Assembly: GCF_900113115.1 (NCBI RefSeq)
Contig: NZ_FOOF01000001.1
Span: 1 to 64,000, forward strand
Source: Duganella sp. CF458
Lineage (GTDB): Bacteria > Pseudomonadota > Gammaproteobacteria > Burkholderiales > Burkholderiaceae_D
DNA length: 64,000 nucleotides
Reading direction: 5' to 3'
Shown: piece by piece, positions 7,108 through 14,092 of the stretch
How the letters are laid out: each line of letters begins with the position of its first letter
Numbering within the stretch: the first letter of the stretch is position 1
The notes under the pieces: generated by a model
Seen by the model: only the letters and a program-made list of their open reading frames with translations
The model's database searches: none
Told to the model about the DNA's origin: nothing
Position numbers and translations under genes: made by a program

Positions 7108-7497
7108 ATGAAAGCCCTACTGGTAGAAGACGAACAGCGGATCGCCCGCATCCACGCCCTGCTGCGCCGTGTCAGCGGCGAACGGCAGAACGTGCTGGCG
7201 GCCGGTCCGCTCACGCTGGACCGCCTGTCGCGCGTGGCCGAATTCGATGGCCGCGAAGTCGAGCTGACCAGCCGCGAATTCAACTTGATGGAATACCTGA
7301 TGCGCGCGCCGGGCCGGGTGTATACCCGCACCCAGATCCTCGAACATGTGCGGGGCTACGACTTCGACCCGCAAACCAATATGGTCGATGTCTGCATCCA
7401 GCGCCTGCGCAGGAAGCTGGCCCTGCCCGAGCACGTCGCCATCGAAGCGGTGCGCGGGGTCGGCTACCGCCTGCGCAAGCCGGACGGCGACGCATGA
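7108..7497 (+). CDS. OmpR-family response regulator lacking its receiver domain (internally deleted)
   Basis: The 129-residue product starts as a normal OmpR-type receiver (MKALLVEDEQRIA). It then jumps at about residue 13 to RIHALLRR, a segment that normally closes the receiver near residue 120. After that it carries a complete winged-helix output domain (ELTSREFNLMEYL, then GRVYTR and the terminal VRGVGYRLRK). About 100 receiver residues, including the phospho-accepting aspartate, are missing without a frameshift. The next gene is an intact sensor kinase with an ATGA overlap. The DNA-binding part could still work, but not by phosphorylation. Confidence 0.85.
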   Translation: MKALLVEDEQRIARIHALLRRVSGERQNVLAAGPLTLDRLSRVAEFDGREVELTSREFNLMEYLMRAPGRVYTRTQILEHVRGYDFDPQTNMVDVCIQRLRRKLALPEHVAIEAVRGVGYRLRKPDGDA

Positions 7498-9088: not shown

Positions 9089-9829
9089 ATGCAGTACAAG
9101 CAGGTCGAACGGGTCGACCCTGCGCTGGATGCCACACGCGCCGACGACCCCTTTCGCGATGACCGCTTGCTGGCGGAAATGCAGGATATCGTCACCGGGG
9201 AGAGCACCTTCGGAATCAGATTAGTCGACACGCCCGAAGGGCGTAGCAAGGCGAGCATGCTGATTCACAAGATGTACGCCTGGCGTGGCCTGGAAGGCAC
9301 CCATGCGCTGTCCGATGACCCGAACCGCGTCACGCTCATGGCACACAACCGTGAAGAGGCGGTCGGCACCTTGACGCTCGGCTTGGACAGTCCATCCGGC
9401 ATCCTGGCCGACCAACTGTTCCGCGCCGAGATCGACGCCTTCCGTGCGCGCGGCAAACGCGTCTGCGAATTCATCAAGCTGGCCTTCGACATGGGGCCAA
9501 AATCGAAGAGCTACCTGGCGGCGCTGATCCATCTGGCCGTCATGTACGCTTACGACATTCATCGCTTCGACGTGCTGTTCATCGAAGTCACGCCGCGCCA
9601 TCGCCAGTTCTACCAGCGCATGCTGGGCTTCCGCCAGCTTGGCGAAGAGGTGGTCAACCCGCGCGTCAATGTGCGCGGAGTGCTGATGCATATCGAACTG
9701 TCGTACATGAAAGAGCAGATCCGCCGCTTCGGCGGCCAGCCCGATTCCGACGAACGTTCCTTCTATCCGCTGTTCTTCTCGCCGCATGAAGAAGCGGGAA
9801 TCATCAATCGGCTGCGGCAACAGGAATAA
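9089..9829 (+). CDS. FeeM-like N-acyl amino acid synthase (GNAT fold)
   Basis: A 246-residue protein resembling the FeeM / PEP-CTERM-associated acyltransferase group, which transfers a long-chain acyl group from acyl-carrier protein to an amino acid. Typical segments are FGIRLVDTPEGRSKASMLIHKMYAWRG in the first third (only its parts are diagnostic), EFIKLAFD, and VTPRHRQFYQRMLGF near residue 180. ATG at 9089 follows a strong GGGAGGG ribosome site; an upstream in-frame start lacks one. It sits five bases before a ThiF-like gene, so the two probably act in one pathway. The acceptor amino acid is unknown. Confidence 0.8.
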   Translation: MQYKQVERVDPALDATRADDPFRDDRLLAEMQDIVTGESTFGIRLVDTPEGRSKASMLIHKMYAWRGLEGTHALSDDPNRVTLMAHNREEAVGTLTLGLDSPSGILADQLFRAEIDAFRARGKRVCEFIKLAFDMGPKSKSYLAALIHLAVMYAYDIHRFDVLFIEVTPRHRQFYQRMLGFRQLGEEVVNPRVNVRGVLMHIELSYMKEQIRRFGGQPDSDERSFYPLFFSPHEEAGIINRLRQQE

Positions 9830-9834
9830 GCACC

Positions 9835-10728
9835 ATGGCTGAATCCAACACCGAACGCCACTTCAACTATGCGCAAGCCTTCTCGCGCAATATCGGCTGG
9901 GTTACCGAGGCGGAACAGGAAGCGCTGCGCAACAAGTGCGTCGCCATTGCCGGCGCCGGCGGCGTGGGCGGCGTGCACTTGCTGACGCTGGCGCGCATGG
10001 GCGTGGGAGCGTTCCACCTGGCCGACTTCGACACCTTCGACATCCCCAACTTCAACCGCCAGGCCGGCGCCTTCATGTCGACACTGGGCCAGCCCAAGGT
10101 CGACGTGATGGCGCGCATGGCGCGCGACATCAACCCGGAAGTGAAGATCCGCACCTTCCCGCAGGGCGTCAACCAGGGCAACCTGCGCGATTTCCTGCAA
10201 GGTGCCGACGTGTACGTCGACGGGCTGGACTTCTTCGCCTTCGAAGCGCGCAAGCAAACCTATGCCATGTGCGAGGCGCTGGGCGTACCGGCCACCTGCG
10301 CGGCGCCGCTGGGCATGAGCGTGGCAGGCCTGAACTTCGTCCCGGGCGCCATGACCTTTGAAGAATACTTCGGCTGGGGCGACCTGCCGGAGCTCGACAT
10401 GGCGATACGCTTCCTGGTCGGGCTGGCGCCGGCCGCCCTGCACCGCAGCTACCTGGTGCCAGGCGGGATCAACCTGGCCGAGCGGCGCGGCGCCTCCACC
10501 GCCATGGCTTGCCAGTTATGTTCCGGCGTGGCGGCCACCCAGGCCATCAAGATGATGCTCAAGCGCGGCAAGATCCTGGCGGCGCCACATGGCTTCCAGT
10601 ACGACGCCTACCGCGACAAGTTCATCACCACCTGGCGCCCGGGCGGCAATCGCCATCCCTTGAATTGGCTCACCATCCAATTCGCCAAGCGCAAATTCTC
10701 GGCAATGCTGGCCGCGCAGGCGAAATAA
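9835..10728 (+). CDS. ThiF/E1-like adenylyltransferase
   Basis: A 297-residue E1-superfamily protein. It has the ATP-binding glycine loop GAGGVGGVHLL (about residues 41-51), an acidic DFDTFD segment followed by NFNRQAG (the N/R/Q motif of MoeB/ThiF), and one CxxC (ACQLCSG, about residue 224). The usual second CxxC of a zinc site is not obvious. Family members adenylate a carboxylate. With FeeM next door the substrate may be an N-acyl amino acid or a partner peptide or carrier (inference). There is no ThiS/MoaD-type small protein nearby, which argues against thiamine or molybdopterin roles. Confidence 0.87.
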   Translation: MAESNTERHFNYAQAFSRNIGWVTEAEQEALRNKCVAIAGAGGVGGVHLLTLARMGVGAFHLADFDTFDIPNFNRQAGAFMSTLGQPKVDVMARMARDINPEVKIRTFPQGVNQGNLRDFLQGADVYVDGLDFFAFEARKQTYAMCEALGVPATCAAPLGMSVAGLNFVPGAMTFEEYFGWGDLPELDMAIRFLVGLAPAALHRSYLVPGGINLAERRGASTAMACQLCSGVAATQAIKMMLKRGKILAAPHGFQYDAYRDKFITTWRPGGNRHPLNWLTIQFAKRKFSAMLAAQAK

Positions 10729-10955: not shown

Positions 10956-10971
10956 TGGCATACGTATTGCT
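10956..10971 (+). promoter_or_regulatory. Candidate sigma-54 promoter for the PEP-CTERM gene
   Basis: TGGCATACGTATTGCT matches the -24/-12 consensus TGGCAC-N5-TTGCW at all but one position, with the GG and GC doublets correctly spaced. It ends 81 bases before the ATG of the PEP-CTERM gene, leaving a leader of about 70 bases. PEP-CTERM genes are known to be linked to the sigma-54-dependent PrsK/PrsR system. The 325-bp gap it lies in (10729-11052) is unusually AT-rich and otherwise holds only one doubtful 37-codon frame. Confidence 0.62.
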
Positions 10972-11052: not shown

Positions 11053-11865
11053 ATGAAGATTCTCACACCTCGCGTTCGCGGCCTGGCCGCCAGCATGCTG
11101 CTAGCATTTGGCGCACTGGCGACCGGTAGCGCAGCCGCAGCACCTGCTTTCCAGGTGGACCCAACCGGACTGGCACCTGCTGGCAATATCTTCACGGCCG
11201 ACGCCCTGAACGGCGTTTCGTCGGCACGCGTCGCTTATACGGGCGTGGGCAACAACTACGTGTCCAACGGCTATATCGTGTTCAGCGGCTTTTCCCTGAA
11301 CTCGAACAACGTGTCGACCGCCGATACCCGTGTCAACTTCGACTATGGCTTGTACGCCACCTTCCAGCAGGACTTCACGTGCAGCGGCATTCTTGGCCCG
11401 GGCGTATCCTGCACCCCGACCGCCCTGTCGCTGCAGCTGTGGGCCGATGTCGGCAACGACAATACGTATAACCAGGCCGTGGTCGGCACCGATCCTTCGG
11501 TCAATTTTGCCGGTGCGCAAACCCAGCTGGCCTGGTCCGACTTCGCCTATAACGGCGTCGGCGGCATCGACAATCTCGGCGGCGTGTTCCAGAACGTCAC
11601 CATGAGCTGGTTCCTGACCCCTGAAGGCAAAAACTACTTCTTCGACCCGGATCCGTTCTACACGGCCTCGTTCGCGGCATTCAACAACACCACACAAGGC
11701 GTCGATTGCGATACCGTCGACTGCACCAACGCCCTCGACATTGCCATCACCCAGGAAGGCGGCATCCTTGATTTCGTCGCCGCCGTCCCTGAACCTGGCG
11801 TGCTGGGACTGCTGGGCATCGGCCTGCTCGGGATGGCCGGCGTCCATCGCCGCAAACAGCGTTAA
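11053..11865 (+). CDS. PEP-CTERM sorting-domain exported protein
   Basis: A 270-residue secreted protein with an N-terminal signal peptide (MKILTPRVRG... to about residue 31, ending in a run of alanines) and a C-terminal sorting tag: AAVPEPG, a hydrophobic helix, then the basic tail HRRKQR. The tag is recognised by an exosortase, not found in this window, and such proteins are usually exported with exopolysaccharide. The body has no recognised catalytic motif. ATG at 11053 follows a GGAGAAA ribosome site. A candidate sigma-54 promoter lies upstream and a perfect hairpin terminator downstream. Confidence 0.9.
   Translation: MKILTPRVRGLAASMLLAFGALATGSAAAAPAFQVDPTGLAPAGNIFTADALNGVSSARVAYTGVGNNYVSNGYIVFSGFSLNSNNVSTADTRVNFDYGLYATFQQDFTCSGILGPGVSCTPTALSLQLWADVGNDNTYNQAVVGTDPSVNFAGAQTQLAWSDFAYNGVGGIDNLGGVFQNVTMSWFLTPEGKNYFFDPDPFYTASFAAFNNTTQGVDCDTVDCTNALDIAITQEGGILDFVAAVPEPGVLGLLGIGLLGMAGVHRRKQR

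Positions 11866-12427: not shown

Positions 12428-14092
<1,665 letters not shown>

Follow-up and report, generated by a model that had tools for sequence, protein, structure and literature searches.

What do two adjoining genes of Duganella sp. CF458 make together, one encoding a FeeM-family N-acyl amino acid synthase and the other a ThiF-family (E1-like) protein? The genes lie in the window, that is, the whole stretch of 64,000 nucleotides that was analysed (positions 1 to 64,000 of the forward strand of contig NZ_FOOF01000001.1, assembly GCF_900113115.1). A preliminary description of this DNA had proposed that the two proteins make and then activate a lipoamino acid, that the route leads to an unknown product, and that it is perhaps tied to the PEP-CTERM/exopolysaccharide genes that follow. 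We infer that the pair is the acyltransferase and the cyclase of the acyl-oxazolone/N-acyl-dehydroamino acid pathway, present here as a second copy without an adjacent oxidase gene and beside the gene for the flocculation-associated PEP-CTERM protein PepA. Acyl transfer by FeeM, followed by cyclization by ThiF, is the course that we regard as probable. The outline of making and then activating a lipoamino acid was right, since homologous enzyme sets do so (PMC10404671, PMC12856293). The product can no longer be called unknown, because the homologous route is published, with a flavin oxidase (FDO) as third enzyme; acyl-oxazolones or N-acyl-dehydroamino acids are the predicted product class of the pair. 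The pathway and the link between synthase and PEP-CTERM genes are each already known; the novelty lies in their joined context and in a version that stands beside PepA without an oxidase.

In the published pathway, TyzA attaches an acyl group to tyrosine, TyzB, which is homologous to ThiF, closes the ring with ATP, and the FDO TyzC desaturates, which yields an acyl-oxazolone (PMC10404671). TrzS is a fusion of ThiF and FDO in which cyclization comes first; when its FDO is disabled or oxygen is limited, the saturated ring is obtained (PMC12856293). Clusters of an N-acyl amino acid synthase, a ThiF protein and a nitroreductase were described in Massilia kyonggiensis, Thalassotalea and Stieleria as makers of N-acyl-dehydrotyrosines (PMC12479983). 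With TyzABC and TrzAS, and with OxzAB of Pseudoalteromonas rubra as described in the same papers (PMC10404671, PMC12856293), the window pair shares an N-acyltransferase of FeeM/LuxI fold encoded together with a ThiF-type putative cyclase, a likeness drawn from family and description. The window pair differs from these systems in having no adjacent FDO gene or domain and in having PepA as a neighbour. The cluster of M. kyonggiensis, Thalassotalea and Stieleria has the same families, related bacteria and short intergenic gaps in common with the window (PMC12479983), but the window copy is without the nitroreductase. It can be seen from one curated protein model, NCBIfam PRK14852 (989 amino acids), how the three activities belong together. 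The window FeeM protein maps to model positions 80-218, the window ThiF protein to 313-589, and the FDO of a second locus in the same genome to 615-779. Because all three map in order on this model, FeeM, ThiF and FDO occur as one natural protein.

The FeeM protein matches Pfam FeeM PF21926 (E=4.1e-48; 163.6 bits, cut-off 27) and the FeeM crystal chain 2g0b (E=1.7e-11), and no match to TIGR03694 was obtained at E<=1. Its Glu127 aligns to the Glu that we counted as chain residue 96 of 2g0b; the catalytic Glu is kept. The active site of FeeM is given as Glu95 (PMC4897644). We take Glu 96 of the chain, one off by our own count, as this Glu95, and Glu127 is accordingly numbered here as the predicted catalytic residue.

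The ThiF protein matches Pfam ThiF PF00899 (E=6.5e-39) and reaches 426.4 bits with NCBIfam PRK08223 (cut-off 266). Partial matches, under the whole-protein cut-offs, were obtained with PRK14851 (ThiF plus FDO; 277.8 bits) and PRK14852 (238.7 bits). Its ATP motif is intact: the glycine loop from residue 40 and D64, D66, R75, K88, D129 and D132 are invariant in 31 of 31 aligned sequences. This motif and the superfamily are shared with the sulfur-carrier adenylyltransferases MoeB and ThiF, but the window protein has no carrier partner found, scores below the cut-offs and has a CxxC pattern that is not kept in wider relatives. The equivalog model adenyl_thiF gave 82 (cut-off 275) and those of MoeB 76 and 65.5 (cut-offs 266 and 377); the UbaA (SAMP-activating E1) and TcdA models were also far under their cut-offs. 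The single CxxC that had been noted earlier is real (CQLC, residues 226-229) and is near-invariant in 31 close relatives. MoeB carries a zinc site; since the first Cys of CQLC is lost in the 12 wider relatives, the motif seems unlike that site. The absence of a ThiS/MoaD partner nearby also held, as no open reading frame (ORF) of 55-130 amino acids ending in Gly-Gly was found within 3 kb of the window ThiF gene. Such a partner was also looked for in 157 ThiF loci (77 from relatives and 80 from named species, two overlapping sets with 134 different sequences in all): a short Gly-Gly-ending ORF lies near ThiF in 17 of them, and none is carrier-like by eye. An identity as E1 of a cofactor pathway, which the preliminary description had considered unlikely, was rejected, no carrier gene being recognised and the equivalog models being under their cut-offs.

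The coordinates, the families and the five-base spacer of the pair were borne out (Table 1). The FeeM gene starts with an ATG preceded by GGAGG. The nearest gene on one side, for a histidine kinase, is 200 bases away and the next gene on the other, pepA, begins 324 bases on, and it was fair to say that the two genes stand alone. Neither a sigma-70 site nor a terminator was found in the spacer, which is a weak test, and at homologous loci the distance between FeeM and ThiF ranges from -12 to 209 bases as measured by model envelope. The two genes are likely to be co-transcribed, judging from this layout. In comparison with the 96%-identical relative in genome G072, dN/dS was 0.059 for FeeM and 0.067 for ThiF. 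These low ratios indicate that both genes are real and constrained, and both are under strong purifying selection.

To what extent is the pair conserved? ThiF genes were collected from 148 genomes of relatives (E<=1e-40), the loci being taken with flanks, a few of which are cut by contig ends. A ThiF of the window kind is present in 70 of the 148 genomes, at 77 places. FeeM lies directly upstream on the same strand at 27 of these 77 loci, with an FDO directly downstream of ThiF in 15 of the 27, and PrsT stands between FeeM and ThiF in 4 further loci. A second set, with one genome per species, consists of the best 80 of 565 confirmed relatives and therefore favours near ones. Here FeeM immediately precedes ThiF at 41 of 80 loci; the FDO is next in 27 of the 41, PrsT directly precedes FeeM in 24, and the full order prsT-FeeM-ThiF-FDO is seen in 16. 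The full order is largely that of Massilia, and it also occurs in Nitrosospira multiformis with ThiF fused to FDO. The two genes are thus often, not always, neighbours, and a functional link between them is supported. An FDO fused to ThiF or directly downstream of it was found at 57 of the 77 relatives' loci and at 65 of the 80 named loci (best 80 of 565). Most ThiF-FDO loci without FeeM belong to one clade of 36. In this clade, which includes L055, L057 and L058, ThiF-FDO stands without FeeM nearby, and some of the genomes are without any strong FeeM (about 90 bits or more).

Twelve FeeM-ThiF loci of relatives are without an adjacent FDO. At six of them a different gene of the nitroreductase family lies no more than 6 kb away, on the strand of the pair in L054 and L059 and on the opposite strand in L066, L085, L097 and L111. 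In L054, L059, L066 and L085 this gene is of a divergent type (type 2), 20-23% identical to the usual FDO (type 1), and that of L097 matches the divergent type. The second flavin-oxidase type may replace the usual oxidase. It was seen near PepA or PrsT in L054, L059, L066, L085 and L170, sometimes on the strand opposite to FeeM-ThiF. The other six pairs (window, L043, L044, L053, L061 and L064) have no FDO within 6 kb, and each of their genomes has a second ThiF locus with an FDO, of type 1 in five and of type 2 in G048, where it lies about 1 kb downstream of the second-locus ThiF. Statements that an FDO is absent are based on single-sequence queries, made with type 1 and type 2 at E<=1e-20 where whole genomes are concerned.

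In the genome of the window itself (6.34 Mb, 61 contigs) there are two close ThiF genes and four FeeM genes over cut-off, together with a weak fifth that resembles ornithine-lipid acyltransferases and is under their cut-offs. Two of the four FeeM genes (L040, L041) have no ThiF beside them. The second ThiF, 67% identical to the window ThiF, is on contig C28 in the row prsT, FeeM, prsT, ThiF, FDO, glycosyltransferase and PepA-like gene. The two tetratricopeptide repeat (TPR) proteins of this locus score 730.8 and 734.5 bits with the model for PrsT, a component of the XrtA/PEP-CTERM system (cut-off 312.2). The FDO beside this ThiF paralogue is the sole one of type 1 that the genome yielded at E<=1e-20, and a search for type 2 found none. 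The XrtA gene is also on contig C28, not on the window contig. A third FeeM gene (contig C15) is near an XrtA chain-length determinant and another PrsT gene. The two PrsT genes flank FeeM in an operon-like row at L039:6261-17193 (C28), and the double-prsT order was observed in L050, L051 and L052 as well.

The tie of such synthases to the exosortase system was then counted over the 148 genomes. Strong FeeM is present in 64 of 70 genomes with XrtA and in 7 of 78 without it (Fisher 2e-26; kinship ignored). These co-occurrence tests ignore relatedness, apart from a repeat within genus, in which the figures were 50 of 51 XrtA genomes and 3 of 23 others. The tie of ThiF is loose (46 of 70 against 24 of 78); where FeeM and ThiF lie within 1.5 kb, XrtA is present in 24 of 26 genomes. 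Of 46 PepA genes over cut-off, 28 have a strong FeeM no more than 7 kb away, with 0.24 expected under random placing; no more than 16 PepA candidates were scored in any one genome, and PepA counts may be low. A link of N-acyl amino acid synthases with PEP-CTERM/exosortase genes is credited to Craig, Cherry and Brady 2011 (cited in PMC4897644 and PMC11072679), and FeeM-type synthases with PEP-CTERM genes are likewise seen in L039 and L040 of the own genome and in many relatives. In Methylomonas, disruption of such a synthase removed a distinct polysaccharide band, and complementation brought the band back (PMC11072679). The text of PMC12479983 does not mention PEP-CTERM or exosortase, and in the open literature searched, the library to which the search extended, no paper was found that joins the ThiF pathway with them.

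PepA of the window scores 214.5 bits with NCBIfam NF033554 (cut-off 80) on the ORF from 11002 and has VPEP near its C-terminus. A sigma-54 type site stands upstream of it, and because of this site of its own PepA is regarded as a neighbour with its own control, not as a third gene of the operon. A site scoring at least 18.5 within 250 bp upstream was found for 43 of the 45 PepA genes at the collected loci (33 different sequences among the 45). The same test gave 166 of 3200 random stretches, 4 of 92 FeeM genes, 1 of 155 ThiF genes and 2 of 44 weaker other PEP-CTERM hits. In Aquincola tertiaricarbonis, pepA has a mapped -24/-12 promoter and is RpoN1-dependent (PMC9850573). The PepA family and the -24/-12 site are common to both bacteria; the Aquincola floc gene adjoins prsT (PMC9850573), while that of the window adjoins FeeM-ThiF. 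The supposed tie of the pair to the genes that follow thus stood in one part: there is a PEP-CTERM tie for FeeM, and PepA adjoins. No exopolysaccharide genes follow. An exopolysaccharide cluster right behind the pair was ruled out, since groES and then groEL come after PepA.

In the best tree, the window locus groups with L043 and L044 with full support, and this group joins L045-L049 at 95/93, where the order is FeeM-ThiF-FDO-PepA. The gene order is common to the three species of the window group, with ThiF identities of 96% and 86%. L053, L061 and L064 are separated from it as another group. PepA is behind the pair in the window, L043 and L044 and before it in L053, L061 and L064. All six FDO-less cassettes are next to PepA and directly upstream of groES-groEL, and no groES or groEL is in view at L045 or L049; a single old site is therefore the simpler reading. 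A single clade of the six rows was not rejected (p-AU 0.12). One old FDO-less site is likely on the gene order, although the tree by itself is not enough to show it. The statement that the FDO was lost at least twice was rejected as too strong, given this p-AU value and the shared groES-groEL site.

How would the pair work? FeeM would take a fatty acyl group from acyl-acyl carrier protein (acyl-ACP) or from acyl-CoA and join it to an amino acid that is probably aromatic, as its homologues suggest. By analogy with TyzB and TrzS, the ThiF-like protein would then activate the carboxylate with ATP to give the 5(4H)-oxazolone ring. A flavin oxidase would desaturate the product; either the FDO of contig C28 may do so in trans, or the product may stay a saturated, reactive oxazolone. 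The product may finally serve the floc-making surface system of PEP-CTERM proteins and exopolysaccharide, as neighbourhood and co-occurrence suggest. If exosortase-linked synthases do feed a ThiF cyclase, a role of the lipid in floc and exopolysaccharide formation would be testable in culturable Massilia and Pseudoduganella, and the natural FDO-plus and FDO-minus versions allow a comparison.

Several results weigh against this pathway for the window pair. No FDO was found within about 6 kb of it, which leaves the published pathway without its third enzyme at this locus. The match of the window ThiF to the TrzS family model (Rv1355c) is weak and partial (63.8 bits against 476). ThiF is not bound to FeeM, because 41 of 77 relatives' loci have ThiF with an FDO and no FeeM directly upstream (FeeM is one gene further up in 4 of the 41). 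Among 321 genomes sampled at class level, 32 matched, with 33 matches, of which 29 were used (2 own copies and 2 unfetched ones left out). FeeM was found at 2 of the 29 loci, weak and on the opposite strand in both, within a 1.5 kb flank and by a model trained on near relatives. For the families of kyonggic acid, thalassotalic acid and stieleriacine, PMC12479983 states that the oxazolone was not observed. Searches at E<=1e-20 gave no FDO of either type in the genomes of four Massilia (arenae, aurea, agri and alkalitolerans) or in the metagenome-assembled genome (MAG) of L193. Supply of the FDO in trans may hence not be general, and the claim that it is always available in trans was too strong, being borne out in six of six relatives' genomes while no FDO was found in these. 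No sigma-54 site was found for the FeeM and ThiF genes, which argues against a control shared by the pair and PepA. Finally, within genus the tie of ThiF to XrtA has the opposite direction (33 of 51 XrtA genomes, 21 of 23 others). Since ThiF alone is loosely linked to XrtA and inversely so within genus, the connection with PEP-CTERM is one of FeeM, extending to ThiF only where ThiF stands with FeeM.

At 18 of the 29 class-level loci ThiF is fused to an FDO or has one beside it. Ten ORFs from their upstream flanks were compared with Pfam, and 2 FeeM just over cut-off (1 on the other strand) and 3 methyltransferases were obtained. In the distant class members L205, L216 and L227 a methyltransferase gene lies upstream of ThiF, which recalls the methylated stieleriacine clusters.

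The missing oxidase can be read differently. The ThiF protein might stop at activation, and the pair would then deliver a saturated acyl-oxazolone (azlactone), a reactive donor whose N-acyl amino acid would be passed on to amine or hydroxyl groups at the surface, in exopolysaccharide, PEP-CTERM protein or lipid. Azlactones act as acyl donors. Eleven FDO-less pairs were seen, and ten of them, the six of the relatives and those of the four Massilia (L141, L151, L168 and L179, with prsT-FeeM-ThiF and PepA behind on the other strand), have PepA beside them. This recurrence, the strong selective constraint under which ThiF stands within the clade of the window and the saturated ring made by TrzS with its FDO disabled (PMC12856293) are in favour of an activation-only branch. 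But the eleventh pair, L193, lies at a contig end with a 1.6 kb downstream flank and has no PepA in view, no acceptor or transferase was identified, and the usual product could be made after all, since a second-locus FDO is present in all six relatives' genomes (type 1 in five, type 2 in one). We consider such a branch unlikely. A stronger form, in which the FDO-less pairs beside PepA are a separate branch and saturated acyl-oxazolones are the dedicated lipidation reagent of the exosortase system, is decidedly unlikely. In L141, L151, L168 and L179, PepA is accompanied by a second FeeM on the other strand, and both face prsT-FeeM-ThiF.

Three other accounts of the pair all have small chances. 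That the pair supplies an N-acyl amino acid only, to act as surfactant or signal, while ThiF edits or salvages in some unrelated process, would suit the own FeeM genes without ThiF (L040, L041) and the finding that N-acyltyrosines are surfactants (PMC4897644), but it does not suit the tight coupling of FeeM and ThiF and their natural fusion; we hold it very improbable. Marginally less probable again is a decaying duplicate, that is, a cassette that makes no product and, after the loss of the FDO, is itself being lost. The nearest cassettes, L045-L049, do keep an FDO between ThiF and PepA, and the window clade groups with them, but the low dN/dS of both genes and the order kept in three species (window, L043, L044) speak against decay. 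The least probable account is a conventional E1, in which ThiF adenylates a sulfur-carrier or ubiquitin-like protein and FeeM is an incidental neighbour. The common superfamily and the kept ATP-site residues are compatible with it; the MoeB, ThiF, UbaA and TcdA models far under their cut-offs, the failure to recognise a carrier-like ORF in 157 loci and the FDO fused to or directly behind ThiF at most loci of both sets are against it. Acyl transfer followed by cyclization is thus the reading that we retain.

Table 1. Features of the FeeM-ThiF locus and of the adjoining pepA gene (positions in the window)
Feature	Position	Strand	Remarks
FeeM-family N-acyl amino acid synthase gene	9089..9829	+	246 aa; predicted catalytic Glu127
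Spacer of 5 bases	9830..9834	+	sequence; likely one transcript
ThiF-family (E1-like) gene	9835..10728	+	297 aa; predicted ATP-dependent cyclase of N-acyl amino acids
Sigma-54 type -24/-12 site TGGCATACGTATTGCT upstream of pepA	10956..10971	+	score 19.5 of 21; predicted
Flocculation-associated PEP-CTERM protein PepA	11053..11865	+	neighbour, separate transcription unit; NF033554

Two minor observations were made on the flanks of the locus. Upstream of the pair, the response regulator at 7108-7494 is without most of its receiver domain. The response regulators of L043, L044 and L053 keep this domain between EDEQRIASF and ARIHAL, where the window reads EDEQRIARIHALL, in frame; the window protein is a receiver stub on an intact DNA-binding domain. 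Downstream, a 9-base repeat present six times at 14033-14086 encodes the Gly-Gly-Met tail of GroEL, a tail that is usual for this protein.

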